A DNA stretch of 64,000 bases from Novosphingobium sp. JCM 18896 (GTDB lineage Bacteria > Pseudomonadota > Alphaproteobacteria > Sphingomonadales > Sphingomonadaceae): positions 744,001 to 808,000 of the forward strand of contig NZ_JAPCZF010000001.1 of the NCBI RefSeq assembly GCF_025938095.1, given 5' to 3'. Of the stretch, positions 6,154 to 39,936 are shown in pieces. The position numbers and the translations under genes were made by a program. Each line of letters starts with the position of its first letter. The stretch's first letter is position 1. Below the pieces are notes generated by a model. The model did not search any database. It saw only the letters and a program-made list of their open reading frames with translations, and had not been told where the DNA came from.

Positions 6154-6276
6154 CCTCGTACGGAAAACGGACGGACGGTAACGGCCCGGCGGTATCGCGC
6201 TCGGCCAGCGCCGCACGCTTGCATCGCCGGGAACCATCGCCGATGGTAGTGCGCGCTATCTGAGGAGGATGTCCCA

Positions 6277-6615
6277 ATGCCCAAAGTCAAGCTTGTCGCC
6301 CTGACCACGCCGCTGCCCGGCAAGGAAGCCGAGTTCAACGATTGGTACCAGAACAAGCATCTCGGCGAGGTCACGTCGGTGCCCGGGTTCGAAGGCGCGC
6401 AGCGTTTCCAGCTCGTCGCCAAGCTCGCCGGCTCCGATCCCAACACCTATCTCGCGATCTACGACGCCGACGTCGAGGATCCGGGCGCTCTGCTCGCGGG
6501 CATGGGCGAACTGGCCCAGTCGGGCAAGATGACCCCGCCGATCTTCCAGGACATGGCCACGACCTACACCGCGCTGTTCACCGAATGCGGTGACTACGTG
6601 AAGGCCGGCGGCTGA
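6277..6615 (+). CDS. Small dimeric alpha/beta-barrel protein (EthD / DUF4286-like)
   Basis: A 112-residue protein with the ferredoxin-like pattern of the dimeric alpha-beta barrel superfamily. An opening strand VKLVALTTPLPGKEAEFNDW leads to the NKHLGEV segment and VPGFEGAQRFQL, all hallmarks of EthD/DUF4286 proteins. Family members are small, cofactor-free and often sit in catabolic clusters for aromatics or terpenoids, sometimes as isomerases or cyclases of unstable intermediates. Which reaction, if any, occurs here is unknown. GAGGA lies just upstream of ATG 6277. It follows the AraC gene at 5122 by 123 bases and is followed by a large REP-like inverted pair before the convergent crotonase gene. 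Confidence 0.75.
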   Translation: MPKVKLVALTTPLPGKEAEFNDWYQNKHLGEVTSVPGFEGAQRFQLVAKLAGSDPNTYLAIYDADVEDPGALLAGMGELAQSGKMTPPIFQDMATTYTALFTECGDYVKAGG

Positions 6616-6620
6616 GGCCA

Positions 6621-6759
6621 CTCATCCTCCCCGGTACGGGGAGGGGGGCCGCCAGCGTAGCTGGTGGTGGAGGGGGCTCTCGGCCAGCGCAGCGCGTATC
6701 GGCCCACCCCCTCCGTCAGACCCTACGGACCTGCCACCTCCCCGCGAGCGGGGAGGATT
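6621..6759. repeat. REP-like inverted pair (ATCCTCCCC family) between convergent genes
   Basis: Outer unit CATCCTCCCCGGTACGGGGA at 6623-6642 and inverted partner with CCTCCCCGCGAGCGGGGAGG at 6737-6756, with purine-rich GGAGGGGGCT and complementary CCCCCTCC blocks inside. It fills the space between convergent genes ending at 6615 and 6761, so it probably also acts as a bidirectional transcription barrier. Related pairs lie at 19970 and 39805. Confidence 0.8.
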
Positions 6760-18249: not shown

Positions 18250-19965
18250 GTGCAGGATACAGAGACATTCGACGTCGTCGTGGTGGGTTCCGGCTCGGCC
18301 GGTGCCATGGCGGCGCTGCGTGCGGCCGATCACGGGCTCAAGGTCCTGATCGTCGAGAAGGCGCAGAAGTTCGGCGGCACCTCGGCCACCTCGGGCGGCG
18401 TCATGTGGATCCCCAACCACCAGCTCGACGGTGACCAGGGCGACAGCCGCGAGGCGACCCTGCAATACGTCGACAGCCTGATCGGCAAGCCGGTCAACCG
18501 CGAGCGGCTCGAGGCCTTCGTCGATGAAGCGCCCAAGATGCTGCAATATCTCAAGGGCACCGGCGTGCAGGTCGCGGCCGCCGCCTGGCCCGACTACTAT
18601 CCGGGCAATCCCGGCGCGCGCGCCGACCGTTCGGTGATCGTGCCGACCTTCGACGGCCGTGATCTCGGCGACAACCGCTATGCGCTGATGCGCGAGCAGT
18701 ACAACCGCTTCAAGCTGTTCGGCCGCTATGCGATGGACCTGACCGAGACCTTCACCCTGATGATGCAGTCGAAGGGCTGGCGCGGCGTCGCCGCCAAGGT
18801 CATCGCGCGCTACTGGATGGATCGTTCGACCCGCGCGGTCTCGCACCGCGACAAGCGCTTCACCTCGGGCGCGGCGCTGATGGGTGCGACCTACAAGGCC
18901 GTGTTCGACCGCGGTGCCGAGCTGCGCATGGAGACCAAGCTCGACCGCCTGCTGGTCGACGACGCCGGCCGCGTGACCGGCGTCGAGGTCAGCAACTTCG
19001 GCCGCAAGTACACGATCAACGCGCGCCACGGCGTCGTGCTCGCCGCGGGCGGCTTCGAGTGGAACCAGGAGCTGCGCGACCGCTTCTATCCGGTCCCCGG
19101 CCTGACCCGTCATTCGTCGACCCCAGAGGACGCCAACCGCGGCGAGGGCCTGATCGCCGCCGAGGCGATCGGCGCCTCGACCGAGCATACCGAAGCGGGC
19201 TGGTGGATCCCCACTATGCAACTGCCGATGCCCGGCGCCTCGAACTTCCACGAAATCCACCAGGCCGCCTTCGACGTCGGCCGGCCGTGGTCGGTCGTGC
19301 TCAACCGTAATGGCGATCGCTTCGTCGATGAGGCCTGCGGCTACGACCAGTTCGGCCAGGCGATGGTCGCCGATCATCAGAAGACCGGCGCCAACATGCC
19401 GTGCTGGCTGATCTTCGATACGAAGTTCCGCCGCAAGTTCAGCGCTGGCGGCCTGATGCCGACCGTGCATACGCCGGAGCGCAAGGTGCCCAACGACTGG
19501 TGGGACCACTACGTCTTCCGCGCCAACACGATCGAGGAGCTGGCGAAGAAGATCCATCTGCCGGTCGACAAGGTCAAGGAACAGGTCCGCAAGATCGGCG
19601 AGTATTCGAAGACCGGCATCGATCCCGAATTCGGCCGCGGTATGAACCCCTACGACCAGATGTTCGGCGATCCCACGGTCACGCCCAATCCCAACCTGGG
19701 TCCGATCGACACCGCGCCGTTCTATGCCGTGCCGATCAACAACGGCGACCTCGGCACCAAGGGCGGCCTGCGCTGCGATGCGCGCGCACGCGTGCTCGAC
19801 CAGGCGGGCAATCCGATCGCCGGCCTCTATGCCGCGGGCAACCAGTCGGGCACGCCGTTCGGTGACGTCTACCCGGGCGCCGGCGCGACGATCGGCCCGG
19901 CCATGACCTTCGGCTACATCGCCGCAAACGACATTGCAGAGCGCTCGGGCAACCAGCGGGCGTAA
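18250..19965 (+). CDS. FAD-binding dehydrogenase, 3-ketosteroid delta1-dehydrogenase-like (second copy)
   Basis: About 571 residues. The FAD motif VVVVGSGSAGAMAALRAADH opens the protein, then FGGTSATSGGVMWIP. Tyr116-Tyr117 in AWPDYYPGNPG and Tyr541 in VYPGAGATIGPAMTFGYIA correspond to active-site positions of 3-ketosteroid delta1-dehydrogenases. It is a diverged paralogue of the gene at 7746. The start is uncertain: GTG 18250 is taken because the conserved strand begins a few codons later; GTG 18235 and ATG 18136 are also in frame, and GGGAGAG at 18239-18245 lies closest to 18250. It is divergent from the Rieske/FadE operon. Likely desaturates a cyclic ketone; the steroid substrate is inferred. 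Confidence 0.83.
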   Translation: MQDTETFDVVVVGSGSAGAMAALRAADHGLKVLIVEKAQKFGGTSATSGGVMWIPNHQLDGDQGDSREATLQYVDSLIGKPVNRERLEAFVDEAPKMLQYLKGTGVQVAAAAWPDYYPGNPGARADRSVIVPTFDGRDLGDNRYALMREQYNRFKLFGRYAMDLTETFTLMMQSKGWRGVAAKVIARYWMDRSTRAVSHRDKRFTSGAALMGATYKAVFDRGAELRMETKLDRLLVDDAGRVTGVEVSNFGRKYTINARHGVVLAAGGFEWNQELRDRFYPVPGLTRHSSTPEDANRGEGLIAAEAIGASTEHTEAGWWIPTMQLPMPGASNFHEIHQAAFDVGRPWSVVLNRNGDRFVDEACGYDQFGQAMVADHQKTGANMPCWLIFDTKFRRKFSAGGLMPTVHTPERKVPNDWWDHYVFRANTIEELAKKIHLPVDKVKEQVRKIGEYSKTGIDPEFGRGMNPYDQMFGDPTVTPNPNLGPIDTAPFYAVPINNGDLGTKGGLRCDARARVLDQAGNPIAGLYAAGNQSGTPFGDVYPGAGATIGPAMTFGYIAANDIAERSGNQRA

Positions 19966-28441: not shown

Positions 28442-29266
28442 TCACGCCTTCGTCAGCAAGGTCCCGAGTTCCTCGTCATCCTCGACGTTGATCATGCCGC
28501 CGAGCTTGGCGCCGCCGCCGACGGCCAGGGTCTCGCCGGTGATGTAGGAGGCGGCGTCGCTGGCGAAGAACACGATCGCTTGGGCCACCTCGCGCATCGT
28601 GCCGTAGCGGCCCAGCGAGAAGGCCGACTTGGCGACCGCGGCGGCGTCGAAGCCGCGCTTGTCCCAGCCGAGTTCGGCGGCCTCGGTCGCGGTCATGCCC
28701 GGGGCGACGCAGTTGACGCGGATGCCGCTCGGTCCCCATTCGGCCGACATGACCTTGGTCAGCATCTGCAGTCCGGCCTTGGCCGCCGAATAGGCGCCGA
28801 CGCCCTGGGTGCCGTTGACCCCGGCCATCGACGAGACGTTGACCACGCAGCCACCGGTCCGCCGCAGATGCGGGAAGGCCGCCTGCGCGCAATATTGCGC
28901 GGCGCTGAGGTTGAGCTGGATGTCGCGGTCCCACTTGGCGAGGTCCATGCGGTGGAGCCCGACATGGCCGTGCGCGCCGCCGGCGTTGTTGACCAGCACG
29001 TCGAGCCGGCCGAACTCGGCCACGGTCGCCTCGATCAGCGCCTTGCAGGCCTCGGGCTTGCGCACGTCGGTCGCGACGCTGAGCACGCGCCGTCCGGTGT
29101 CCGCGCGGATCGCTTCGGCCATGACCTCGAGTTTCTCGATGCGCCGCCCCGCGAGGATAATGTCGGCGCCGCGCTCGGCCAGCAGTCGCGCAGTCGCGCC
29201 GCCGATGCCCGTGCCGCCGCCGGTGACCACGGCCACGCGGCCGCTGAGATCGAAGCCTTCGAGCAT
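28442..29266 (-). CDS. SDR family oxidoreductase
   Basis: A 274-residue SDR. VTGGGTGIGG lies at about residues 14-23, NNAG near 93, Ser in VNVSSMAG and the catalytic YSAAK pair. The C-terminus is extended by about 25 residues past the usual GGG end (LAVGGGAKLGG, then an acidic NVEDDEELGT segment). ATG 29266 overlaps the stop of the DUF1214-like gene by one base (TGATG), so the two form a coupled operon read from the operator at 30493. Substrate unknown. The tight coupling suggests that both act on the same compound. Confidence 0.88.
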   Translation of the reverse strand: MLEGFDLSGRVAVVTGGGTGIGGATARLLAERGADIILAGRRIEKLEVMAEAIRADTGRRVLSVATDVRKPEACKALIEATVAEFGRLDVLVNNAGGAHGHVGLHRMDLAKWDRDIQLNLSAAQYCAQAAFPHLRRTGGCVVNVSSMAGVNGTQGVGAYSAAKAGLQMLTKVMSAEWGPSGIRVNCVAPGMTATEAAELGWDKRGFDAAAVAKSAFSLGRYGTMREVAQAIVFFASDAASYITGETLAVGGGAKLGGMINVEDDEELGTLLTKA

Positions 29267-30456
29267 CACCAGCGTCTCCGGCGTTGGCAGGCCCTTACGC
29301 GCTGGCGCAGCTCCTCGGCACGCTCTTCCGGCGTCACCTTGGGCGTGTCCGCGGGCAGGTGATCGCGGATCTCGGAGAGCTTCACGCGCTTCATCGTCGG
29401 CACCGGGTGGCTGTCGCAGTCGTACCAGCGGCCGTAGATCGTACCCTGGTAGAAGCCCGCCGCGTCGAGCCAGTTCGGCACGCCCGGGTCCTCCTGCGCG
29501 ACCACGGCATAGAACCGCCCGTCCGAGGCGACATGGGCGAAGTGGCCGTTGGTGCTCGACAGGCGGTAGACGTATTCGGTGGCGTTGAAATAGGGATCGT
29601 TGAGCTGCCAGTTCCAGTAGCGGCGCTGCGCCGGCAGGTCGGTCTCGACGATCAGCGCCTCGCCGGGCTCGAACTCGTAGACCGCAGGGAGATAGACCTG
29701 GCGGGTGAACGATCCGCCGTAGACCGCCGGCTCGAACACGTTGACGCCGACATTGGCCTTCACCGCGTTTTGCATGGCGTAGAACAGCTTGGTCGCGCGC
29801 ACGGGCATCCGCGCCATGTGATCGATCCGCTCGAGGATTTCGTCGGGCGTCAGTCGTGCCTTCAATCCCTTGGGGTTCAGGCATTCGATCGACATGCGTG
29901 GATCGACCTCGTTGACCCAGTCGTAGCTGCGATAGCGCGTCATCAACACGCGCGCGCCCGGCGCGATCTTCAGCCAGTTGCCCGTATAGCCCGCCGGCTT
30001 CTCGGTGCTGACCAGCAGTTCGAAGCTGCCGTCGGGCTCGACCTGCAGGTCGCCGCTGTCGATGTCGTTGTAATAGGTGCCGACGAGGTCGTTTTCCCAG
30101 GGCAGCCCGGCCGAGCTCAGCGCCGTGGTGAAGGTGATCATGAACACCGAACCGCGGTCGCCGCTGATCTTGTAGCTGTAGTCGCTGGAGATCGGCGCGT
30201 AGAGGTAGATGTCGTCGGGGTTGGGCTGCAGGGTGTAGACGGGGTTCCACAGCGGTGCCCAGTCGGGATGCTCGGGATCGGCGTGGAAGAAGGCGAAATA
30301 GCCGTAGGACAGCTGCATCATGATCTGGCGATAGACGTCAGCGCGATATTGCGGGTCGTCGGGGCGCCAGGTGTTCGCGATCTCGTTGACAGCCTCCTCC
30401 AGCGGTTGGAGGTACTGCGACAGCGGGCCGATCTGTCCACCAGTGCTTTGGGTCAT
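29266..30456 (-). CDS. DUF1214-like protein of unknown function
   Basis: A 396-residue soluble protein without an evident signal peptide or membrane span. The middle region (NWLKIAPGARVLMTRYRSYD) and C-terminal segment (RRYWNWQLNDPYFNATEYVY) resemble DUF1214/DUF1254-type jelly-roll proteins; aromatic residues are unusually frequent. No catalytic motif is recognisable. The start at 30456 has GAGAGGA close upstream. It is the first gene of a minus-strand operon with an SDR and is divergent from another SDR gene, with a 20-bp operator-like palindrome between. In sphingomonads such proteins sit in catabolic clusters, but function is unknown and I do not assign one. Confidence 0.75.
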   Translation of the reverse strand: MTQSTGGQIGPLSQYLQPLEEAVNEIANTWRPDDPQYRADVYRQIMMQLSYGYFAFFHADPEHPDWAPLWNPVYTLQPNPDDIYLYAPISSDYSYKISGDRGSVFMITFTTALSSAGLPWENDLVGTYYNDIDSGDLQVEPDGSFELLVSTEKPAGYTGNWLKIAPGARVLMTRYRSYDWVNEVDPRMSIECLNPKGLKARLTPDEILERIDHMARMPVRATKLFYAMQNAVKANVGVNVFEPAVYGGSFTRQVYLPAVYEFEPGEALIVETDLPAQRRYWNWQLNDPYFNATEYVYRLSSTNGHFAHVASDGRFYAVVAQEDPGVPNWLDAAGFYQGTIYGRWYDCDSHPVPTMKRVKLSEIRDHLPADTPKVTPEERAEELRQRVRACQRRRRW

Positions 30457-30492: not shown

Positions 30493-30512
30493 TAGATGGT
30501 AAGCACTATCTA
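30493..30512. promoter_or_regulatory. Operator-like palindrome, site 1 of 3
   Basis: TAGATGGTAAGCACTATCTA: outer TAGAT/ATCTA inverted arms, core GATGG-N6-CTATC. It lies centrally in the 82-base gap between divergent starts 30456 and 30539. The same spacing and near-identical halves occur at 35314 and 37673. The flanking GCTTGCCT on the left also matches site 3. Confidence 0.65.
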
Positions 30513-30538
30513 ATCGGACTGTAAATGGAGGATAGAGT

Positions 30539-31339
30539 ATGAGCGGAGAGGACATGATCGATCTGGGCGGCCAGGTGGCCCTGGTGACGGGCGCAGGCCA
30601 GAACGCGGGCCGCGCGATTGCGCTGGAGCTGGCGCGGCACAATTGCGGCGGCGTCGCGGTGAACGATTTCGTTGCCGAACGTGCCGAGGCCGTGGCCGCG
30701 GAAATCCGCGCGACCGGCGTGCCGGCCGTGGCCGTGCCCTTCGACGTTTCCGACCTCGAAGCCGTGCGCGCCGCCGTGGCCAAGGCGACGGCTGAACTCG
30801 GCCCGATCACGGTGCTGGTCAACAATGCCGGCATGGCGGGCCCGGGCGGCTCGCTGCGGCCGACCTTGAACTTCTGGGAGGAAGATCCCGAGGCCTGGCC
30901 GCGCTATCTCGGCACCAATCTCTACGGCGTGCTCAACTGCTGCCACGCGATCATCCCGGCGATGGTCGAGGCCAAGAAGGGCCGCATCGTCACGATCGTC
31001 TCGGACTCGGGCCGCACCGGCGAGCCCAAGCTCGCGGTCTATGCCGCGGCCAAGGCCGGCGCCAACGGCTTCGTCCGCTCGATCGCCAAGGAAGTCGGCC
31101 GCCACGGCATCACCTGCAACGCCGTGTCGCTGTCGTCGCTGATGCCCGACATGCCGCAGGAACAGCTCGAGGAATTCGAGAAGAGCGATCACGCCAAGAA
31201 GCAGCTCTCGAACTACATCGTGCGCCGCTACGGCCGTTCGCAGGACGTCGCCACCCTGGTGACCTACCTGTGCTCGAACGCGGCCTCGTGGATCACGGGG
31301 CAGACCTATCCGCTCAATGGCGGCTACGTCACCGCCTAA
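30539..31339 (+). CDS. SDR family oxidoreductase
   Basis: A 266-residue SDR. The cofactor loop is VTGAGQNAGRA (about residues 17-27), with NNAG near 100, Ser in VSDSGRTG, the catalytic YAAAK pair, and the tail TYPLNGGYVTA. GGAGG at 30526-30530 supports ATG 30539; ATG 30554 is a possible alternative. Its promoter carries palindrome site 1. It is followed after 94 bases by the molybdenum hydroxylase genes on the same strand, so an operon of SDR plus hydroxylase is likely. Probably an alcohol/ketone dehydrogenase acting before or after hydroxylation. Substrate unknown. Confidence 0.88.
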   Translation: MSGEDMIDLGGQVALVTGAGQNAGRAIALELARHNCGGVAVNDFVAERAEAVAAEIRATGVPAVAVPFDVSDLEAVRAAVAKATAELGPITVLVNNAGMAGPGGSLRPTLNFWEEDPEAWPRYLGTNLYGVLNCCHAIIPAMVEAKKGRIVTIVSDSGRTGEPKLAVYAAAKAGANGFVRSIAKEVGRHGITCNAVSLSSLMPDMPQEQLEEFEKSDHAKKQLSNYIVRRYGRSQDVATLVTYLCSNAASWITGQTYPLNGGYVTA

Positions 31340-31433
31340 GGCTGAGACGATCAGGCAAGGCTCTGCCGCATTCCGGCATTGACGAATCCGGTTGGAGGAC
31401 GATGTTTAGACCTCAAAATACGAGGGAGTCTGA

Positions 31434-32315
31434 ATGTCGTCGCCAGCCTATCATGCCCCTGAGACGATAGAGCAGGCGGTGGCGCTGCTGGCGGGTGACG
31501 CCGGCGCGCGGCCGCTTGCCGGGGGCACCGACCTGATCGTGCAGATGCGCTCGGGCCGCAACGCGCCCAGCGCGATCGTCGATCTCAAGCGTATCGCCGG
31601 CCTGTCCGGCATCCGCGCGCTGCCCGGTGGCGGTTTCGCCATCGGCGCGGCGACGCCGTGCACCGCGCTCAAGGACGACGCGGCGCTGGCTGCGGCCTGG
31701 CCCGGCGTGGTCGAGGCGGCCAACCTGATCGGCTCGGTCCAGGTACGCAATCGCGCGACCATGGCGGGCAACCTCTGTAACGCCTCGCCCGCAGCCGACA
31801 GCGTGCCCGCGCTGGTCGCCGCCGGTGCGACCTGCCTCGTCGCCGGCCCGAACGGTCAGCGCGAGGTGCCGGTCGAGGCGATCCCGGCGGGGCCGGGCAA
31901 GACCTCGCTCGCGCCCGGCGAAGTGCTGGTCGAGATTCGCTTGCCGGCACAACTCGGCGCCGATGCCTACCTGCGCTCGATCCCGCGGAGCGAGATGGAC
32001 ATCGCCGTGGTCGGTGCCGGGGTGAGTCTGGTGCTCGGTGCCGGCGGTGTCTGCACCGCGGCGCGCGTGGCGATCGGCGCCGTCGCGCCCACGGTCGTCC
32101 TCGTCGAAGCCGCGGGCGCCGCGTTGATCGGCGGCAAGCTCGACGATGCCGCGCTCGAAGCCGCCGCCGATGCCGTGCGCGCCGCCTGCCGGCCGATCGA
32201 CGACAAGCGCGGCACCGCCGAATACCGCACCGCCATGGCCGGCGTGCTGGTCAAGCGCACCGCAAAGATCGCGCTCGAACGCGCGCATAAAAATCAGGGC
32301 CGGAGTCAGGCATGA
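31434..32315 (+). CDS. Molybdenum hydroxylase, FAD subunit (CoxM/XDH medium-type)
   Basis: A 293-residue FAD subunit of the xanthine dehydrogenase family. ARPLAGGTDLIVQMRSGR (about residues 23-40) is the FAD_binding_5 loop, and IGSVQVRNRATMAGNLCNAS (about 99-118) the second FAD contact with its NRATMAGN motif. The C-terminal CO_deh_flav_C region follows. It passes electrons from the 2Fe-2S subunit to an acceptor. The order FAD, 2Fe-2S, Mo subunit is the coxMSL order, and the stop overlaps the next start by 4 bases (ATGA). The 4Fe-4S insertion of 4-hydroxybenzoyl-CoA reductase beta subunits is absent. Confidence 0.92.
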   Translation: MSSPAYHAPETIEQAVALLAGDAGARPLAGGTDLIVQMRSGRNAPSAIVDLKRIAGLSGIRALPGGGFAIGAATPCTALKDDAALAAAWPGVVEAANLIGSVQVRNRATMAGNLCNASPAADSVPALVAAGATCLVAGPNGQREVPVEAIPAGPGKTSLAPGEVLVEIRLPAQLGADAYLRSIPRSEMDIAVVGAGVSLVLGAGGVCTAARVAIGAVAPTVVLVEAAGAALIGGKLDDAALEAAADAVRAACRPIDDKRGTAEYRTAMAGVLVKRTAKIALERAHKNQGRSQA

Positions 32316-32803
32316 GCAAGCTTCTCGTATCCACCACGGTCAACGGCGACCCGCAGCAGTTCCTCTGCGATCCCGACACCTCGCTACTCGACGCGCTGCG
32401 CGAGGAGATGGACCTGACCGGTAGCAAGGAAGGCTGCGGCTCGGGCGACTGCGGCGCCTGCACCGTCGTGCTCGACGGCAAGATGGTCTGCTCGTGCCTG
32501 GTCCTCGCACCGGAGGCCGAGGGGCGCCAGGTCAGCACGATCGAGGGCGTCGCCGAAGGCAACCAGCTCCATCCGATCCAGCGCCAGTTCCTCGAACACG
32601 GCGCGCTCCAGTGCGGCTTCTGCACGCCGGGCTTCATCGTCGCATCCAAGGCACTGCTCGACCACAATCCGGATCCGAGCGAGACCGAGGTGCGCTATTG
32701 GCTGGCGGGCAATCTCTGCCGCTGCACGGGCTACGACAAGATCGTGCGCGCGGTGATGGACGCCGCGGCCGAGCTGCGTCAGGACAGGAGGACCGCGGCA
32801 TGA
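32312..32803 (+). CDS. Molybdenum hydroxylase, [2Fe-2S] subunit (CoxS-type)
   Basis: A 163-residue iron-sulfur subunit. The plant-type cluster ligands are Cys42, Cys47, Cys50 and Cys62 (GCGSGDCGAC ... CSC), and the second cluster uses Cys101, Cys104, Cys136 and Cys138 (CGFC and CRC). All eight are present. It transfers electrons from the molybdenum site to FAD. ATG overlaps the FAD-subunit stop and its own stop overlaps the large-subunit start (both ATGA), so the three subunits are translated as a coupled set with matched stoichiometry. Confidence 0.94.
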   Translation: MSKLLVSTTVNGDPQQFLCDPDTSLLDALREEMDLTGSKEGCGSGDCGACTVVLDGKMVCSCLVLAPEAEGRQVSTIEGVAEGNQLHPIQRQFLEHGALQCGFCTPGFIVASKALLDHNPDPSETEVRYWLAGNLCRCTGYDKIVRAVMDAAAELRQDRRTAA

Positions 32804-35058
32804 ACGCGCCTGAAAACAAGCAGCAGTTCCGTCTCGTCGGCACCCGTCCCGTCCGTCCCGACGGGGTCGAGAAGGTCACCGGCAAGGCGATCTATGGACC
32901 TGACCACGTCTCGCCCGGCATGCTCCAGGGCGCTGTGCTGCGCAGCCCGCATCCGCACGCACGCATCCGCGGCATCGACACGAAGAAGGCCGAGGCGCTC
33001 GCGGGTGTGAAGGCCGTCGTCACCGGCCAGGATTTTCCGCAGGCGGCGGACAAGCTCGTCGCCGGTGCCGAAAGCGCCTCGAACCTGCGCTGGGTCGCGC
33101 AGAAGTGCATGGCGATCGGCAAGGTGTTCTACGAAGGCCAGGCCGTTGCCGCGGTCGCCGCGACCAGCCATGCCGTGGCCGAAGCGGCGCTCAAGCTGAT
33201 CGAGGTCGATTACGAGGTGCTGCCGCACGTCATCGCCATCGAGGACGCGCTGGCCGAGGACGCGCCGGTGCTGCACGACGACGTGTTCACCCAGGGCCTC
33301 GCGGAGAAGCCGACCAAGCCCTCGAACGCCTCGATGCGTTTCGCGATCGAGCGCGGCGACGCCAAGGCGGCGATCGCCGGCGCGGCCGCGAGCTTCACCG
33401 GTCGCTTCACGCTGCAGCCCGTGCACCAGGGCTATATCGAGCCGCACGCCTGCGTTGCGCAGTGGAATGCCGACGGTCAGGCCCAGATCTGGTGTTCGAG
33501 CCAGGGGCACTTCGCGATCCGCGCGATGACTGCGGGCATCCTGCAGATCGACATCGCCAGCGTCCGTGTCCACCCGCTCGAGATCGGCGGCGGCTTCGGC
33601 GGTAAGACCACGGTCTATCTCGAACCCGTCGCCATGCTGCTGTCGCGCAAGGCAGGGCGGCCGGTGCGGTTGACGATGAAGCGGACCGACATCTTCCGCT
33701 CGACCGGCCCGGCACCGGGCGCGGTGATCGATATCACCCTGGGCGCGGCGGCCGACGGCACCTTGGTGGGGGCCGAGATCGAGCTCAAGTACCACGGCGG
33801 CGCCTTCCCGGGGGCCAACGAGGTCTATTCGGGCGTCGGCGGCGCGGTGGGCCACTACCGCGTGCCCAATGCCTCGATCGTCGGTTGGAACGTGCTCAGC
33901 AACATTCCGACGATGCACGCTTATCGTGCGCCGGGCGCGCCGCAGATCAACTTTGCGGTCGAGAGCGCGATGGACGAACTCGCGGCCAGGCTCGGCATCG
34001 ATCCGATCGACCTGCGGCTCAAGAACATCGTCCATCCGGGCGAGCCCTCGGCCTCGGGTGTGCCGCTTGGCGCGATCGGCTATGCCGAGGCGCTGGAGGC
34101 GGCCAAGGCCCACCCGCACTGGTCGTCCCCCGTTGCACCCGGCCAGGGCCGCGGCGTCGCCTGTGGCGCCTGGGGCAATTACGGCGGCCCGTCGACCGCT
34201 TCGGTCAAGCTCGGCGAGGACGGCTCGGTGCTCGTCACCGAGGGCAGCCCCGACATCGGCGGCAGCCGCGCCTCAATGGCGATCATGGCGGCCGAGACCC
34301 TGGGCGTCGCCTACGAGAAAGTCCGCGTGACGATCGCCGACACCTCGTCGATCGGTTTCTCGATGGTCACCGGCGGCAGCCGGACGACCTTCGCCACGGG
34401 CAAGGCGGTGATCCAGGCGACCGAGGGCGTGATCGAACAGCTCAAGGACCGCGCCGCGCGGACCTGGGGCGTCGACGTCGCCGCCGTGACCTGGGAAGAC
34501 GGCACCGCGGTGCATGGCGACCAGCGCCTGACTCTGGCCCAGATCGCCGCGAAGACCGGCACCACCGGCGGGCCGATCTCGGCCGAGGCCGTGGTCGATC
34601 CGCACGACTTCCTGCCCGGCTTCGGCGTGCACATCTGCGACACCGAGGTCGATCGCGAGACCGGCCACGTCCTCGTCAAGCGCTACACCGTGGTCCAGGA
34701 CGTCGGCCGCGCGATCCATGCCGACTACGTCGAGGGGCAGATGCAGGGCGGGGCTGTGCAGGGCATCGGTTGGGCGCTCAACGAGGCCTATGTCTACGAC
34801 CGCTCGGGCAAGCTCGATAACGCCGGCTTCCTCGACTATCGCATGCCCGTCGCCTCGGACATGCCGATGATCGATACGGTCATGGTCGAAGTGCCGAACC
34901 CCGCGCATCCCTATGGCGTCAAGGGCGTCGGCGAGGTGCCGATCGTGCCGCCGCTGGCCGCGGTCGGCAACGCGGTCAGCCGCGCGACGGGGATCCGCAT
35001 GCACGACCTGCCGATCAGCCCCGACCGCGTCTACGGCCTGCTGCGCGCGGCGGAGTAG
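32800..35058 (+). CDS. Molybdenum hydroxylase, molybdopterin-binding large subunit
   Basis: A 752-residue catalytic subunit. After the N-terminal RPDGVEKVTGKAIYGPD, the first MoCo region includes EIGGGFGGKT. The active-site loop reads AYRAPGAPQ (about residue 374), and the catalytic Glu is in GVKGVGEVPIVPPLAAVGNA near the C-terminus. The loop is not the AYxCSFR of form I CO dehydrogenase, so a CO dehydrogenase is ruled out; xanthine dehydrogenase usually has FRGFG. It hydroxylates an unidentified, probably cyclic or CoA-linked substrate using water as oxygen source. GGACAGGAGG sits before ATG 32800. A MoaD-like gene follows. Confidence 0.9.
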   Translation: MNAPENKQQFRLVGTRPVRPDGVEKVTGKAIYGPDHVSPGMLQGAVLRSPHPHARIRGIDTKKAEALAGVKAVVTGQDFPQAADKLVAGAESASNLRWVAQKCMAIGKVFYEGQAVAAVAATSHAVAEAALKLIEVDYEVLPHVIAIEDALAEDAPVLHDDVFTQGLAEKPTKPSNASMRFAIERGDAKAAIAGAAASFTGRFTLQPVHQGYIEPHACVAQWNADGQAQIWCSSQGHFAIRAMTAGILQIDIASVRVHPLEIGGGFGGKTTVYLEPVAMLLSRKAGRPVRLTMKRTDIFRSTGPAPGAVIDITLGAAADGTLVGAEIELKYHGGAFPGANEVYSGVGGAVGHYRVPNASIVGWNVLSNIPTMHAYRAPGAPQINFAVESAMDELAARLGIDPIDLRLKNIVHPGEPSASGVPLGAIGYAEALEAAKAHPHWSSPVAPGQGRGVACGAWGNYGGPSTASVKLGEDGSVLVTEGSPDIGGSRASMAIMAAETLGVAYEKVRVTIADTSSIGFSMVTGGSRTTFATGKAVIQATEGVIEQLKDRAARTWGVDVAAVTWEDGTAVHGDQRLTLAQIAAKTGTTGGPISAEAVVDPHDFLPGFGVHICDTEVDRETGHVLVKRYTVVQDVGRAIHADYVEGQMQGGAVQGIGWALNEAYVYDRSGKLDNAGFLDYRMPVASDMPMIDTVMVEVPNPAHPYGVKGVGEVPIVPPLAAVGNAVSRATGIRMHDLPISPDRVYGLLRAAE

Positions 35059-35061
35059 CGC

Positions 35062-35304
35062 TTGCGCCTGATCGTCATGCCGCCGTTCGACCGCGAGTTC
35101 TTCGGCGGCAAGGACACGCTCGAGATCGAGGCACCGACCTTGCTGGCGCTGGTCGACCGGCTCGGCGATCTGTCGCCGGGCTTTGCCGAACAGGCCGAGG
35201 CGCGCGCCGCCTTTGCGGTCGACGGCGTATTCGCGCCCGACTGGACGCGCGCGCTGGCCGGGGCGGAGGAAGTCGTCCTGCTGCAGCGCGTTGCCGGCGG
35301 GTGA
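35062..35304 (+). CDS. MoaD/ThiS-like sulfur-carrier protein
   Basis: An 80-residue beta-grasp candidate: opening strand RLIVMPPF, a middle helix ALVDRLGDLSPGF, a VDGVFA turn matching the VNG of MoaD, and a closing EEVVLLQRVAGG. The C-terminal Gly-Gly is the thiocarboxylate-forming end of sulfur carriers. It begins 3 bases after the hydroxylase large subunit with GGAG at 35052-35055 before TTG 35062. A dedicated MoaD-like protein in a hydroxylase operon could serve molybdopterin synthesis or cofactor sulfuration for this enzyme. This is inference; the family call rests on length, order of elements and the Gly-Gly end. Confidence 0.7.
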   Translation: MRLIVMPPFDREFFGGKDTLEIEAPTLLALVDRLGDLSPGFAEQAEARAAFAVDGVFAPDWTRALAGAEEVVLLQRVAGG

Positions 35305-35313
35305 TTGCGCGTA

Positions 35314-35333
35314 TAGATAGTGCTCACTCATTA
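35314..35333. promoter_or_regulatory. Operator-like palindrome, site 2 of 3
   Basis: TAGATAGTGCTCACTCATTA: left arm identical to consensus, right arm CTCATTA diverged from CTATCTA, inner AGTG-CT-CACT perfect. It lies 17 bases upstream of the TauD-type gene start (35351), where a bound protein would block transcription or initiation. Confidence 0.6.
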
Positions 35334-35350
35334 TAAGATGGGGAGAGGAC

Positions 35351-36151
35351 ATGACCGACAGCCTGACCTGGCGCGCGCTGGAGCCCTTCGGCGTCGAGAT
35401 CGAGCGCGACCTGTCGCAGCCGCTGTCGCCGGCCGAGACTGAGCAGTTCCGCTCGCTGTTCAACACCCACGGTCTCGTCATCGCGCGCGGGCAGGCGCTG
35501 TCCATGGAGCGCCAGCGCGATGTCTGCGCGCTGCTCGGGCCGATCCTGCTGCGCGAGGGCGAGAACGGCTTCATGACCAACGAGGGCGGCGGCCCTTCGG
35601 CCTCCGAGCTCAACTGGCATGCGGACGCGGCCTATACCGAGCATCCGTTCGACGCGCTGTCGCTGCACGCGCTCCACGTGGTCGACGGCGCCTCGTCGAC
35701 GCGCTTCGCCCGCGCCGAGATCGAGCTGCCCGACGACCTGCGGGACCTGCTCGACGGGCGCGAGCAGGAGATGATCGCGCCGCACTACACGGTGCTGGCC
35801 GAGGTCACCTGCGACGTCCGCGATCCGCTCGCGCAGAAGCGCGGCGTCATGCCCGCGCTCTATCGCAACCCGCACAACGGCCGCACCTGCGTCTGGGTCA
35901 ACGCCATGCAGACCGCGCGGCTGCTCGACATGGATTGGGAGCATAGCCGCGACAGCCTCCATGCGATCTACGACCACCTCTATGCCCCGGCCAACGTCTA
36001 CGAGCACCGCTGGCACCAGGGCGACCTGGTCATCTGGGACAACATCGCGCTCCAGCACATGCGCGGGAACGTCGAGGGCGTGGGCAAGCGCGTGCTGCAG
36101 CGGGTGATCGTCGGCACCGAGGGTGTGGCGCCGCACGTCCAGGCGGGCTAG
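35351..36151 (+). CDS. TauD/TfdA-family Fe(II)/2-oxoglutarate dioxygenase
   Basis: A 266-residue non-heme iron dioxygenase. The facial triad is His90-x-Asp92 in LNWHADAAYTEHPF and a distal His at about 236 in WDNIALQHMR; a conserved Arg for 2-oxoglutarate follows at about 247-251. It hydroxylates an unactivated carbon, often next to a sulfonate, ether or acid, releasing succinate and CO2. GGGGAGAGG precedes ATG 35351, and palindrome site 2 lies just upstream. It is followed by a GFA gene 9 bases on. In this regulon it could cleave or hydroxylate the same substrate as the molybdenum hydroxylase. A taurine-specific role is not supported. Confidence 0.9.
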   Translation: MTDSLTWRALEPFGVEIERDLSQPLSPAETEQFRSLFNTHGLVIARGQALSMERQRDVCALLGPILLREGENGFMTNEGGGPSASELNWHADAAYTEHPFDALSLHALHVVDGASSTRFARAEIELPDDLRDLLDGREQEMIAPHYTVLAEVTCDVRDPLAQKRGVMPALYRNPHNGRTCVWVNAMQTARLLDMDWEHSRDSLHAIYDHLYAPANVYEHRWHQGDLVIWDNIALQHMRGNVEGVGKRVLQRVIVGTEGVAPHVQAG

Positions 36152-36160
36152 GCCCGGGCC

Positions 36161-36568
36161 ATGACGAATACGACCCAGGGTTCCTGCCAATGCGGCGCCG
36201 TTCGCTTTCGTGTCGATGGCGCATTCCAGAGCTTCTTCCTCTGTCACTGCGGGCGCTGCCGCAAGGACACCGGCTCGGCGCACGGCGCCAACCTGTTTTC
36301 GTCGAGCGCCAAGCTCGAATGGCTGGCGGGTGAGGGGGAGGTGCGGACCTATCGCGTGCCCGACACGCGCCACGAGAAGAGCTTCTGCGCCACCTGCGGC
36401 TCGGCGCTGCCGCGCGTGCAAGAGGGGGTCGGCATGCTCGTCGTGCCCGCGGGCAGCCTCGACGAGCCGATCGACATTCGGCCCGACGCGCACATCTTCG
36501 TCGCCGATCGCGCGGATTGGGATGAGGGGCTCGAAGCCCTGCCGCGGTGCGAGACCTTCCCGGGCTAG
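36161..36568 (+). CDS. GFA (CENP-V) family zinc protein
   Basis: A 135-residue protein of the glutathione-dependent formaldehyde-activating/CENP-V fold. The zinc sites are intact: SCQCGAVRF, CHCGRCRKDTGS and CATCGSALPR. Family members bind two zinc ions; some are glutathione-adduct enzymes, many have unknown function. Its presence behind a 2-oxoglutarate dioxygenase might relate to formaldehyde or another aldehyde released by oxidative demethylation or dealkylation, which is inference. The gene is coupled to the dioxygenase by a 9-base gap. Its stop TAG shares CTAG (36565-36568) with the stop of the convergent gene. Confidence 0.9.
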   Translation: MTNTTQGSCQCGAVRFRVDGAFQSFFLCHCGRCRKDTGSAHGANLFSSSAKLEWLAGEGEVRTYRVPDTRHEKSFCATCGSALPRVQEGVGMLVVPAGSLDEPIDIRPDAHIFVADRADWDEGLEALPRCETFPG

Positions 36569-37638
36569 GCGCCGACCTCGACCGTCTCACCATTGCGCCA
36601 CTGCCGCAGCACCAGGTAGCGCCCGTGCAGCGCGCCGCGATCCTGGATGCCGAAGCCGAGCAGGGTGCCTTCCTCGCCCTCGGCGGCGGGGAGCCACTTG
36701 ATCTGCTCGAGCCCGACTTTGACGCCTTCGCGCGTGAAGTCCTCGGCGCGGGCCAGGCCCTCGGCTACGAGCCGGCCGAGATCGTAGCCCTTGGCGGCCC
36801 AGACCGCCTGCTTCGCACCCAGGCCCATGCGCTCGCGCAGCGCGTTGAGCGTGCGGTTCGAATCCGAATGCATGTCGATGTAGATCCAGCCGTCGCAGGC
36901 CTGGGCGAAGTCGCCGTGATAGCCGCGCAGGCCCGCCGTGTTCATGATCCGCGGCCCCTGCCAGCCGCTGGCGCTCAGCGGCCGCGCCACGGCCGGCGCC
37001 GATAGCCCGAGCCCGAGGTAGACGAAGCCCTGCGGCTGCGCGGCCAGCACGCGTTCGACCGCTTCCGACGCGTCCTCCGATAGCGGCGAGATCGCTTCGG
37101 CGGCGACGATATCGAGCCCGATAATCCGCGCCTCGTCCTCCAGATACTTGAGATGCCGCGTGCCGATCGGCGACTGGTCGTAGACCACGCCGACCCGATC
37201 CGCGCCTATCGCCTTGAGGTGCCGGGCCATGACCAGCGATTCGTCCTCGTGCGAGCCGACCTGGAGGTGGAACATCCATTCGCCGCGCCCGCGCTCGGCG
37301 CCGGCCCAGTTGATCGTCGGTACTTGCGCGGCCTCGACCCAGGGCGTCGCGGCGAGGGCGTTGTCGCCGATCGCCGGGCCGACGATCAGAGCGACGTCCT
37401 GCCGGATCAGGTCCTGAAACGCCCGCTCCACGGCAGCCGCGGTGCCCGAGGGCAGCCCGAGCCCATAGGCGTGGACGAATTCGACCTCGGCATCGAGCCG
37501 GCCCGCGGCCTGCACGGCTTCGACCTCGCGCCGCAGCCAGTCGGTGACGTCTCCGGGCGCATCGGTGCCATCGCCCATGTCGTTGAGCACGCCTACCTTG
37601 ATCTTGGCCTTGATCTTGGCCTTGATCTTCGTCGCCAT
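36565..37638 (-). CDS. Type 1 periplasmic-binding-fold protein (Leu/Ile/Val-binding-like) without signal peptide
   Basis: A 357-residue protein with the two-domain fold of branched-chain amino acid binding proteins (Peripla_BP_6-like): KVGVLNDMGDGTDAPGDVTD at the start, ALIVGPAIGDNALA, a middle GVVYDQSPIGTRHL, and AAKGYDLGRLVAEGLARA towards the end. The N-terminus is MATKIKAKIKAKIKVGVL: no hydrophobic leader, only a Lys/Ile repeat made by a 12-base tandem repeat. ATG 37638 is chosen because GGGAGGG ends 6 bases before it; ATG 37641 and 37644 add only Met. No permease or ATPase gene is nearby. It may be a cytosolic sensor, like AmiC, or exported by unusual means. Confidence 0.8.
   Translation of the reverse strand: MATKIKAKIKAKIKVGVLNDMGDGTDAPGDVTDWLRREVEAVQAAGRLDAEVEFVHAYGLGLPSGTAAAVERAFQDLIRQDVALIVGPAIGDNALAATPWVEAAQVPTINWAGAERGRGEWMFHLQVGSHEDESLVMARHLKAIGADRVGVVYDQSPIGTRHLKYLEDEARIIGLDIVAAEAISPLSEDASEAVERVLAAQPQGFVYLGLGLSAPAVARPLSASGWQGPRIMNTAGLRGYHGDFAQACDGWIYIDMHSDSNRTLNALRERMGLGAKQAVWAAKGYDLGRLVAEGLARAEDFTREGVKVGLEQIKWLPAAEGEEGTLLGFGIQDRGALHGRYLVLRQWRNGETVEVGA
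37597..37629. repeat. 12-base tandem repeat in a coding start
   Basis: Nearly three copies of CTTGATCTTGGC, encoding Lys-Ile-Lys-Ala units at residues 4-14 of the binding-fold protein. In-frame length change by slippage would vary the basic N-terminus without breaking the frame. Confidence 0.8.
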
Positions 37639-37672
37639 CATCATCCCTCCCGCGATGCGCCTCGCGCTTGCC

Positions 37673-37692
37673 CAGATAGCTGCCACTATCCT
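37673..37692. promoter_or_regulatory. Operator-like palindrome, site 3 of 3
   Basis: CAGATAGCTGCCACTATCCT: core GATAG-N6-CTATC, perfect in the 5-base halves. It lies between divergent genes starting at 37638 and 37741. The left flank GCTTGCCC matches the flank of site 1. Confidence 0.65.
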
Positions 37693-37740: not shown

Positions 37741-38895
37741 ATGAGCAGGATATCCGATTTGCTGGACGCCGCGCGCGGCGCATCCGGTCTCGACAATTTC
37801 GGCGAGGACAGCTTCCGCGAGGGGCTCGAACGGCTGATCGCCTCGGGCGACGGCGAGGCGCGGCTCAACGAGGCCGGCCGCCGGATGTTCGACGGCCAGA
37901 TCGTCATGCTGCTGATGAAGCGGCTCGAGGTCGAGGACTGGTACGCACGCCATCCCGAGATCGACGAGCAGGAGATCGTCGCGCCGCTGATGGTCCTCGG
38001 CCTGCCGCGCACCGGCTCGACCGCGCTGCATTGCCTGCTCGGCGAAGACCCTGCGGTGCGCGTCATGCGCAATTGGGAATGCATGAACCCTTGCCCGCCG
38101 CCCGAGGCCGCGACCTACGAGACCGATCCGCGCATCGCGCTGATGGACGAGCAGATGAAGCGCCGCGACGAGATGACGCCGCGGATGAAGCAGATGCTGC
38201 CGAGCACCTCGACCTCGCCGACCGAAGACCAGCTCACCATGGGCTACAACTTCGCTTCGCAGATCTTCCAGGCGAGCTTCCGCATCCCGTCCTATGCGCA
38301 GTGGCTCCACCACGAGGCCGATCTCGAACCCACCTTCCGCTACGTCAAGCGCGTGCTCAAGCTGCTGCAATGGCGCTGCCCGCCGCGCCGCTGGCGGCTC
38401 AAGAACCCGACCTATTCGATGTTCATCACGGCGCTCGACAAGGTCTTCCCCGACGCGCGCTATTGCATGACGCATCGTGACGTCGCCAACGTGATCCCCT
38501 CGGTCGCCGATCTCTACTACGAGATGCACAAGCCCAACACCGACGTGCCCGACAAGGCTTGGCTCGGCGCGATCAACGAGGAGTTCGGCATGCTCGGCAT
38601 GCAGCGGATGATCGCCTTCCGCGACGCCGGGCAAGAGCACCGCTTCTTCGACATCCACTTCGCCCCGTTCCAGAAGGACCCGTTCCCGACGCTGGCGAAG
38701 CTCTACGACTTCCTCGGCGAGCCTTTCACGCCCGAGGCCGAGGCACGGATGCGCGCCTGGCGCGAGAACACCCCGCGCGACAAGCACGGCCGCCACGAAT
38801 ACGACGGCGCCGAATTCGGTCTGCACACCGCCGAACTGCGCGAGAAGTTCCGCTTCTATACCGACCGCTACGACGTGCCGCTCGGGAAGGACTGA
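37741..38895 (+). CDS. Sulfotransferase family protein (PF13469-like)
   Basis: A 384-residue protein. The PAPS 5'-phosphosulfate loop GLPRTGST is at residues 87-94. A later YCMTHRDVANVIPSVADLY segment supplies the 3'-phosphate-binding Arg/Ser region, and RWRLKNPTYSMF contains the conserved Lys-x-Pro. There is no membrane anchor, so it is cytosolic. It transfers sulfate from PAPS to a hydroxyl group, although many bacterial members lack a proven acceptor. GGGGAGAG lies right before ATG 37741, and palindrome site 3 is in its promoter. The stop overlaps the next SDR start by one base. Presence in a catabolic regulon is unexpected and hints at a conjugated intermediate. Confidence 0.85.
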   Translation: MSRISDLLDAARGASGLDNFGEDSFREGLERLIASGDGEARLNEAGRRMFDGQIVMLLMKRLEVEDWYARHPEIDEQEIVAPLMVLGLPRTGSTALHCLLGEDPAVRVMRNWECMNPCPPPEAATYETDPRIALMDEQMKRRDEMTPRMKQMLPSTSTSPTEDQLTMGYNFASQIFQASFRIPSYAQWLHHEADLEPTFRYVKRVLKLLQWRCPPRRWRLKNPTYSMFITALDKVFPDARYCMTHRDVANVIPSVADLYYEMHKPNTDVPDKAWLGAINEEFGMLGMQRMIAFRDAGQEHRFFDIHFAPFQKDPFPTLAKLYDFLGEPFTPEAEARMRAWRENTPRDKHGRHEYDGAEFGLHTAELREKFRFYTDRYDVPLGKD

Positions 38896-39815
38896 TGTTC
38901 GGCTTTCACACCGAGGCCGCGGAGGTCGTTCGCGGGATCGATCTGACCGGCCGGCGGGTGGTGATCACCGGCGCGAGCTCGGGGATCGGCGTGGAGACCG
39001 CGCGGGCGCTGGCTCTGGTCGGCGCGGATCTGGTGCTCGGCGTGCGGGACGTCGCGAAGGGCGGCGAGGTCCTTCGCGACATCGACGGTAACCTTCGCCT
39101 TCTCAGGCTCGACCTGTCCGATCTCGCTTCGGTCGCGAACTTCGCCGCGCAGATATCGGGCCCGGTCGACGTGCTGATCTGCAACGCCGGCGTTTCGAAG
39201 ACGCCGGACAAACATCTGGCCAACGGCCTCGACATAAGGTTCGCGACCAATCACCTCGGTCACTTCCACCTCGCGCACTTGCTAAAGCCGCAGATGGCGG
39301 AACGCGGCGCGCGGATCGTCGTGGTCAGTTCGGCTGCGCACAAAGGCATGCCGGTGCGGCTCGACGACCTGCAGTGGCAGAGCCGCGAGCATTTCGACGG
39401 TGCCGCCTATGCCGAGAGCAAGAGCGCCAACATCCTCTTCGCGCAGGAGGCGACGCGGCGCTGGCAGGGCGAGGGGATCTTCGCCAATGCCGTGCTGCCG
39501 GGCTCGTCGCTGACCGGGCTGCAGCGCTTCCACGGCGAAGCGCTCAAGCGCAAGATCGGCTTCATCCACGAGGACGGCTCGCTCGATCCGCGGATGAAGA
39601 CCGCAGGCCAGGCGGCGGCGACCTCGGTCTGGGCGGCGACGGCGCCTGAACTCAAGGGGCGCGGCGGTCTGGTGCTCGAGGATTGCGCCGAGGCGCTGCC
39701 GGTGGGACCCGAGACCCATGCCTGGGCCGGCTATGACGCCAGCGTCGCCGACCCAGAGACCGCGCGGCTGCTGTGGGAGCATTCGCTGGAACTGGTGCGA
39801 AAATTCCTCCCCTGA
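38895..39815 (+). CDS. SDR family protein, retinol-dehydrogenase-like
   Basis: A 306-residue SDR with the longer C-terminus of the retinol dehydrogenase/WW-oxidoreductase group. TGASSGIGVE is the cofactor loop (about residues 26-35), with CNAGVS in place of NNAG, ATNHLGHF typical of this group, Ser in VVVSSAAH and the catalytic YAESKSAN. ATG overlaps the sulfotransferase stop (TGATG), so it is in that operon. The last codons and stop (Phe-Leu-Pro-TGA) are supplied by the REP-like repeat at 39805. It probably oxidises or reduces a hydrophobic alcohol or ketone; substrate unknown. Confidence 0.88.
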   Translation: MFGFHTEAAEVVRGIDLTGRRVVITGASSGIGVETARALALVGADLVLGVRDVAKGGEVLRDIDGNLRLLRLDLSDLASVANFAAQISGPVDVLICNAGVSKTPDKHLANGLDIRFATNHLGHFHLAHLLKPQMAERGARIVVVSSAAHKGMPVRLDDLQWQSREHFDGAAYAESKSANILFAQEATRRWQGEGIFANAVLPGSSLTGLQRFHGEALKRKIGFIHEDGSLDPRMKTAGQAAATSVWAATAPELKGRGGLVLEDCAEALPVGPETHAWAGYDASVADPETARLLWEHSLELVRKFLP

Positions 39816-39936
39816 AAGGGGAGGGGGACCACCCGCAGGGTGGTGGAGGGGGCTCTCGGCTGAGTGAGGCGTTTCCGGCGAACTCCCTCCACCCCGCCGC
39901 TTCGCGGCGCGGTCCCCCTCCCCGTGCCGGGGAGGA
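39805..39936. repeat. REP-like inverted pair (ATCCTCCCC family) overlapping an SDR stop codon
   Basis: The left unit TTCCTCCCCTGAAAGGGGAG starts at 39805, inside the SDR gene, and contains its TGA at 39813-39815. The right unit CCCCGTGCCGGGGAGGAA ends at about 39936. Internal GGAGGGGGCT and CTCCCTCC blocks and GGACCACCC/GGTGG stems match the pairs at 6621 and 19970. Confidence 0.8.

Follow-up and report, generated by a model that had tools for sequence, protein, structure and literature searches.

Palindromic sites and the genes around them

The subject of this work is a set of 20-bp palindromes in a 64,000-nucleotide stretch of the Novosphingobium sp. JCM 18896 genome (contig NZ_JAPCZF010000001.1, positions 744,001 to 808,000), which we call the window and in whose numbering coordinates without a contig label are given. 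A preliminary description of this DNA had proposed that three such palindromes, all in short promoter regions, could control six transcripts and lack a local regulator. We confirmed that the palindromes are a real, shared motif, and comparison across the genus indicates that they very probably serve a single trans-acting TetR-family repressor as operators. Genomes, contigs, and loci carry G, C, and L numbers; the window's genome (5.33 Mb, 26 contigs) is G000, and its sister genome is G061. The features at the sites are listed here with the matrix scores explained below.

6243..6262: fourth site, weak (11.1), 5' of a 112-amino-acid open reading frame (ORF; 6277-6615) without a Pfam match
28442..29266, minus strand: SDR, second gene, after the DUF1214 gene; a gene call, SDR by reading
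29266..30456, minus strand: DUF1214 protein (PF06742, 1.8e-9), the class most often paired with the motif
30493..30512: site 1, strong operator candidate (32.5), between the DUF1214-SDR genes and the SDR-molybdenum (Mo) hydroxylase genes
30539..31339, plus strand: SDR (PF00106), divergent target of site 1
31434..35058, plus strand: Mo-hydroxylase flavin adenine dinucleotide (FAD), iron-sulfur, and Mo subunits (Pfam); upstream score -16.8, with no separate site
35314..35333: site 2, weak operator candidate (11.4), 5' of the TauD-type gene, one half degenerate
35351..36151, plus strand: TauD-type dioxygenase (PF02668), putative target of site 2
36161..36568, plus strand: GFA-type protein (PF04828), next after the TauD-type gene
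36565..37644, minus strand: Peripla_BP_6-type protein (PF13458), possibly a target of site 3
37673..37692: site 3, weak operator candidate (8.6), between the binding-fold and sulfotransferase genes
37741..38895, plus strand: sulfotransferase (PF13469), possible target of site 3
38895..39815, plus strand: SDR (PF00106), after the sulfotransferase gene

Direct reading of the sequence returned site 1 as TAGATGGTAAGCACTATCTA, site 2 as TAGATAGTGCTCACTCATTA, and site 3 as CAGATAGCTGCCACTATCCT, each at the position first claimed for it; the half-sites agreed with the earlier reading, and GCTTGCC precedes sites 1 and 3. The promoter placement also held, with site 1 between the divergent genes 29266-30456 (-) and 30539-31339 (+), site 3 between the divergent genes 36565-37644 (-) and 37741-38895 (+), and site 2 between the codirectional genes 35077-35304 (+) and 35351-36151 (+). 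No transcription factor was found at 28.4 to 39.8 kb among the 11 of 12 called genes scanned with Pfam, and the twelfth (28442-29266) reads as an SDR gene. The common core that had been put forward, GATAG-N6-CTATC, fared less well: it is exact in site 3 only, with one mismatch in site 1 and three in site 2, and when up to three mismatches are allowed, the window contains 159 matches to it versus 122 expected, which is near background. Aligning the sites in one orientation gave a wider palindrome of 20 bp, WAGATAGTNNNNACTATCTW, and it is this motif rather than the core that sets the sites apart from chance. Positions 9 and 12 of the 20-mer are variable in the matrix, and the matrix together with the promoter alignment shows conserved arms, a variable center, and flanks that differ between sites.

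The scoring matrix was built from 51 distinct sites of other genomes with at most one mismatch to WAGATAGTNNNNACTATCTW, leaving out G000 and G061. A scan of the window ranked site 1 first, followed by site 2, a fourth site that the preliminary description had missed (6243-6262, ATGGTAGTGCGCGCTATCTG), and site 3; the next best score was 0.8, and the best in the reversed window with the same matrix was 3.1. An AraC-type gene (5122-6153) lies upstream of the fourth site. Four simulated 5.33-Mb genomes of window composition contained a mean of 7.25 matches scoring at least 8, 3.5 scoring at least 11, and none scoring at least 17. About 0.09 matches of at least 8 are thus expected per 64 kb, compared to 4 in the window, all intergenic. 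Site 1 is far beyond chance, and the other three window sites are weak singly but clustered. Scatter at chance level had been named as grounds for rejecting the motif; the strong sites pass this test, while weak sites (8 to 14) are genome-wide as frequent as chance predicts.

Looser patterns were tried and set aside. GATAG-N6-CTATC had at least 6 exact matches in G000 and at least 80 at up to one mismatch (at least 40 for the reversed control) and was replaced by the 20-bp motif as too loose. The intermediate pattern AGATAGTGNNNACTATCT at up to three mismatches gave 19 forward and 14 reverse matches (control, 9 and 13), GATAGTGNNCACTATC at up to one mismatch matched in 8 of 59 genomes (control, 3), and TAGATAGTNNNNACYATCTA at up to two mismatches matched in 23 of 24 chosen genomes, but its control did so in 9 of 24. 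The 20-bp motif at up to three mismatches occurs at 13 places in G000 versus 7 for the control.

A TetR-family gene that accompanies the motif

Across 195 Novosphingobium genomes, WAGATAGTNNNNACTATCTW was found at up to one mismatch in 34, and the reversed-pattern control was found in none. The loci analyzed hold 93 distinct sites scoring at least 17, none of them inside called genes and 90 lying at most 260 bp from a gene start. The genes paired with sites belong chiefly to the DUF1214 (43 pairs), SDR (27), TetR (19), and VOC (12) classes, followed by a second SDR (8), sulfotransferase (7), CysD (3), and smaller classes; the loci were partly selected by the site, so the gene classes rather than the totals carry weight.

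A TetR-family gene adjoins the site in G132, G154, G190, G166, and G086. A profile built from these five proteins, with a cutoff of E ≤ 1e-35, has matches in 39 of the 195 genomes. G000 has one copy (G000:C22:77882-78523, about 77.86-78.54 kb), beside htpX on a contig other than that of the window, which accounts for the missing local regulator. Its protein matches TetR_N (PF00440) at 3.6e-13, with 49.5 bits versus a cutoff of 24. Between the two families first considered, the TetR type is supported by footprinting of promoters, by the adjacency of site and TetR gene in relatives, and by co-occurrence. The GntR type is not supported: in Pfam scans that covered the regulator recurring beside the sites (19 sites) and a minority of the single neighbors, this regulator matched TetR_N and not GntR. 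The helix-turn-helix (HTH) stretch TTAAIARRA is invariant in 17 TetR homologues. A close homologue (L221), when modeled with AlphaFold (mean predicted local distance difference test [pLDDT], 81.8; predicted template modeling score, 0.68), shows an all-helical TetR fold with a C-terminal ligand domain, and in the first ten VIA-align rows its Z scores are 14.6 to 15.5 over 176 to 193 residues. The solved structural relatives are general types (QacR, FadR, KstR, and EthR), and the PDB sequence and fold comparisons gave no clue to a ligand.

The motif and the TetR gene occur together. A site with at most one mismatch is present in 32 of 39 genomes with the TetR gene and in 2 of 156 without it (Fisher 1.6e-27, uncorrected for relatedness). 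Among the seven TetR-bearing genomes without such a site, three (G057, G088, and G172) carry a well-scoring matrix site upstream of the DUF1214 gene, and in each of three more (G005, G048, and G115) a pair of sites with two to three mismatches lies near that gene. At E ≤ 1e-40, the window's DUF1214 protein has matches in 66 of the 195 genomes of the genus, and 30 of these loci (L054-L083) were analyzed further. A site scoring at least 8 lies within 400 bp upstream of the DUF1214 match at 19 of the 30; within 1,400 bp, a limit chosen to accommodate a preceding gene in the operon, it is present at 27 of 28 loci with the TetR gene and at neither of the 2 without. When a strong DUF1214 match was set at a best E of <1e-140 (a chosen cut), 44 genomes had one, of which 6 lack the TetR gene, and none of these 6 has the site. 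G010 has the TetR gene and the site without a strong DUF1214 match.

An alignment of ten DUF1214/SDR intergenic promoters showed conserved arms and a variable center, and site 1 is by this comparison a strong putative operator conserved 5' of the DUF1214/SDR pair across the genus. The preliminary description held that loss of sites in relatives keeping the genes would count against it. Such loss occurs in two genomes, G189, which lacks the TetR gene, and G157, whose only TetR is divergent. G189 has no TetR match at E ≤ 1e-35 and retains the SDR, Mo-hydroxylase, TauD, and DUF1214 genes; in its otherwise conserved promoter the flank GGGACTCGCTTGC is unchanged, and the palindrome is broken.

In relatives such as G132, G154, G086, and G152, the TetR gene is a member of this gene set and is preceded by the site. 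Adjacency extends beyond the genus. A TetR search of named genomes yielded 38 loci, including N. malaysiense, N. resinovorum, and N. panipatense, and 31 were used after 7 weak partial matches (L244-L250) were left out. The site stands directly 5' of the TetR gene at 15 of the 31; 10 of these duplicate DNA from genus genomes already analyzed, and 5 are new (Sphingobium sufflavum, Sphingomonas cavernae, Sphingomonas sp. LaA6.9, Hydrocarboniphaga sp., and Mangrovimicrobium sediminis). The Hydrocarboniphaga sp. genome is a metagenome-assembled genome of the Nevskiaceae, and M. sediminis is an isolate of the Halieaceae; we take both to be gammaproteobacteria.

In a tree of 42 TetR rows (41 different), the htpX-linked copies, including that of G000, fall into one 17-row clade (support, 96/89), 13 members of which have htpX called alongside and 4 of which do not. 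This clade is nested among copies beside DUF1214, VOC, and SDR genes, and the placement of a few long branches is unsure. The site is present in the TetR promoter in 20 of the 42 rows and is kept within the htpX clade in G190, G166, and G130. The simplest reading of the tree is that the TetR gene may have moved once to the htpX neighborhood, with autoregulation subsequently lost in the lineage of the window and the DUF1214/SDR operator retained.

Proposed mechanism and competing explanations

TetR-family proteins generally bind DNA as dimers and repress, and an effector releases them. Autoregulation through an operator at the regulator's own promoter is frequent in the family but not required. 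Here, a TetR dimer (or a pair of dimers) would bind WAGATAGTNNNNACTATCTW in the promoters and block transcription, and a small-molecule effector, probably the hydrophobic substrate of the pathway or a coenzyme A (CoA) intermediate, would release the repressor. What we infer is that the protein binds this DNA, that it represses and does not activate, that an effector releases it, and, from the tree, that its gene has relocated. A sigma-70-like match overlaps site 1 (minus strand, 30525-30496; TTTACA, 18 nt, TACCAT), which fits repression, though such matches are weak evidence; the promoter scan found no sigma-70-like match at site 2 or 3.

Several observations weigh against a single TetR-family repressor acting at all of these sites. 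The consensus was picked after the sites of the window had been seen, and some circularity therefore remains in the matrix. Sites 2 and 3 score in a range in which 7.25 chance matches per genome are expected, and they are weak sites found only in the nearest relatives. The TetR promoter of G000 is without a site (best score, -16.6), as is that of G061, and 22 of the 42 TetR rows have no site above 8 in front, so that the link between regulator and site in G000 rests on relatives. In G157, the seventh TetR-bearing genome without a near-exact site, the TetR is divergent and the genes examined have no site nearby. Of the six TetR-less genomes with a strong DUF1214 match, G189 alone keeps the same cluster; DUF1214 has other neighbors in the other five, making them weak controls. 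Finally, the motif also occurs in G096 and G106, which lack the TetR gene. The two copies (G096:C11:106155 and G106:C13:79889) are an identical variant, TAGATAGTTAAGCCTATCTA, in a one-strand reading and lie outside called genes.

We considered that site 1 alone might function, with sites 2 and 3 and the site at 6243 being chance or decaying look-alikes, which is possible although we lean against it. Their scores of 8.6 to 11.4 are within the genome-wide chance range, site 2 has a poor half, and most relatives retaining the genes lack sites 2 and 3. Site 2 still scores 8.1 in G061 and 7.7 in G130, where mostly one half remains, and the 9 other genomes scored have no site 5' of TauD; site 3 still scores 8.6 in G061 but is absent from G130, and no site precedes the binding-fold gene in the 9 others scored. 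Set against this are the clustering of four intergenic matches in 64 kb, the retention of both sites in the sister genome, and the same good half of site 2 in three genomes. The earlier proposal is supported as to the shared operator and regulon, within two limits: the weakness of sites 2 and 3, and the lack in G000 of a site belonging to the Mo-hydroxylase genes themselves. The Mo-hydroxylase FAD gene had no site of its own in any of the 11 genomes scored (G000 included); in G153 (L191), homologous Mo-hydroxylase genes lie downstream of a strong site (32.5).

It is much less probable that a different DNA-binding protein uses the sites in G000, such as the second TetR by C20:25241, with the htpX-linked TetR in another role. 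A site-like palindrome (18.6) does adjoin that other TetR gene (PF00440, 7.6e-10), and the bare TetR promoter of G000 and the TetR-less motif carriers G096 and G106 would fit such an exchange. The site and the profile-defined TetR, the one whose distribution was searched, nevertheless coincide genus-wide and are adjacent in distant relatives, and the htpX-linked copies conserve the HTH stretch, three of them with the site still in their own promoters. That the palindromes are a dispersed repeat or transcript structure rather than protein-binding operators would suit their symmetry and intergenic position, but conserved arms between differing flanks, a center free to vary, and a presence that tracks the regulator gene make it highly improbable.

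Other sites, the pathway, and related regulons

Other candidates in G000 were located by pattern searches followed by matrix scoring, with at least 17 counted as strong; the matrix was applied to selected stretches, so weaker sites elsewhere may be missed.

C12:57556: strong site (33.3), before a DUF1214-SDR-sulfotransferase-alcohol dehydrogenase gene row
C24:40737 (18.9) and C20:481955 (17.4): strong sites, before TonB-receptor-like genes (by reading)
C20:25241 (L252 4242-4261, AAAATAGTAAAAACTGTCAA): strong site (18.6), between a different TetR gene and sulfotransferase and DUF1214-homologue genes
C22:116563: weak site (13.3), before two DUF7064 genes; the G152 homologue has a strong site
C20:541792: weak site (11.3), before a DUF1214 homologue
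C22:103397: weak site (8.0), before a class III CoA-transferase gene; the G152 homologue also has a site

Matches at C4:93840, C22:11395, and C26:101522 lie inside called genes and were taken as chance. Those at C22:178764 (12.7) and C25:134080 (10.2) are intergenic with nothing further in their support; a 9.4 match at L025 123 likewise has no further support.

The gene for sulfate adenylyltransferase, cysD, is preceded by the site in G132, G010, and G056 (L115 1737-5304, L264 5240-8990, and L119 3938-4373). cysN and a gene for a CysQ-like phosphatase then follow in G132 and G010, and the G056 contig ends within cysD. On the opposite side of the cysD site are sulfotransferase, SDR, and alcohol dehydrogenase genes and, in G010 and G056, a gene for a metallo-beta-lactamase-fold protein whose homologue has an alkylsulfatase dimerization domain. 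The supply of 3'-phosphoadenosine-5'-phosphosulfate (PAPS) may possibly be under the same regulator, and the CysDN, sulfotransferase, and alkylsulfatase-like neighbors offer a lead, and only that, to a sulfate-ester step on a hydrophobic substrate. The same cys cluster in G000 (C22:313000-332900) has no site of at least 5.5 within it, which weakens the lead for G000. Two KstD-like flavoproteins in the window (7746-9422 and 18250-19965) are closest to 3-ketosteroid delta-1-dehydrogenase models, below curated cutoffs, and suggest that a ring-degrading pathway may surround the cluster. A sulfation-dependent catabolic route could be drawn from these genes, in which the repressor, its gene moved once to htpX, would jointly control sulfotransferases, the proteins that supply and recycle PAPS (CysD, CysN, and a CysQ-like phosphatase), an alkylsulfatase-like hydrolase, and dehydrogenases acting on a hydrophobic, perhaps steroid-like substrate; we regard this route as rather unlikely.

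Some further features of the window concern individual genes. A model of the DUF1214 protein (pLDDT, 74) has as its best match 6ans, an uncharacterized Burkholderia protein, which gives no function. Between the Mo-hydroxylase genes and site 2 is a ThiS-family ORF of 75 amino acids (35077-35304) that ends in GG and has homologues in G061 and G130. The called start of the Peripla_BP_6-type protein is a run of KIKA repeats; a relative starts with MPAPIRIGLLNDMAD, by which no signal peptide is apparent, and this binding-fold protein may be cytoplasmic. The 16-mer GGTGGAGGGGGCTCTC, present at 6666-6681 and again at 39842-39857, is possibly part of a dispersed intergenic repeat.

Repression of a catabolic regulon by a TetR-family protein is known from KstR of actinobacteria. 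The modeled homologue of the candidate TetR shares its fold (VIA-align Z, 13.9), with a remote sequence match (PDB profile, 1.2e-6, query positions 20 or 21 to 149), and the KstR operator presumably differs from WAGATAGTNNNNACTATCTW. The nearest characterized sphingomonad case that we found is EdcR of Caenibius (formerly Novosphingobium) tardaugens, a TetR-family repressor of estradiol genes. Its gene adjoins the cluster, and its operator is the palindrome TnnCnnTACnAnTnGTAnnGnnA in the cluster promoters, with a weaker copy 5' of its own gene (PMC8700777). Both systems pair a TetR-family regulator and a sphingomonad catabolic cluster with a palindromic promoter operator; the operators differ, with a printed consensus of TnnCnnTACnAnTnGTAnnGnnA versus WAGATAGTNNNNACTATCTW here, compared by eye with the matrix (PMC8700777). 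The proteobacterial TetR-family regulons of PsrA, FadP, LiuQ, RutR, and FabR, known from comparative genomics, likewise gain and lose sites by lineage (PMC5343134) and are set apart by their targets, which here are DUF1214, SDR, VOC, and sulfotransferase genes. In two other papers, GATAGTG appears once, within a mutant probe for an electrophoretic mobility shift assay (PMC6016246), and PheR is an IclR-family regulator with another motif (PMC13273656). Our search of the open-access literature turned up no account of the motif, the regulator, or the gene set. Regulons in which a TetR-family protein acts at scattered palindromic operators are already known; this regulon appears to be a new one.

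In summary, our study offers a candidate regulator, a precise putative operator, and a gene set for catabolic genes without assigned function (DUF1214, SDR, VOC, and sulfotransferase) that are scattered in Novosphingobium. It also presents a case in which the regulator lies away from the gene cluster while the core operator stays conserved, and in which the operator has decayed in a relative without the regulator. Identifying the ligand would indicate which substrate the pathway acts on and might provide a biosensor.

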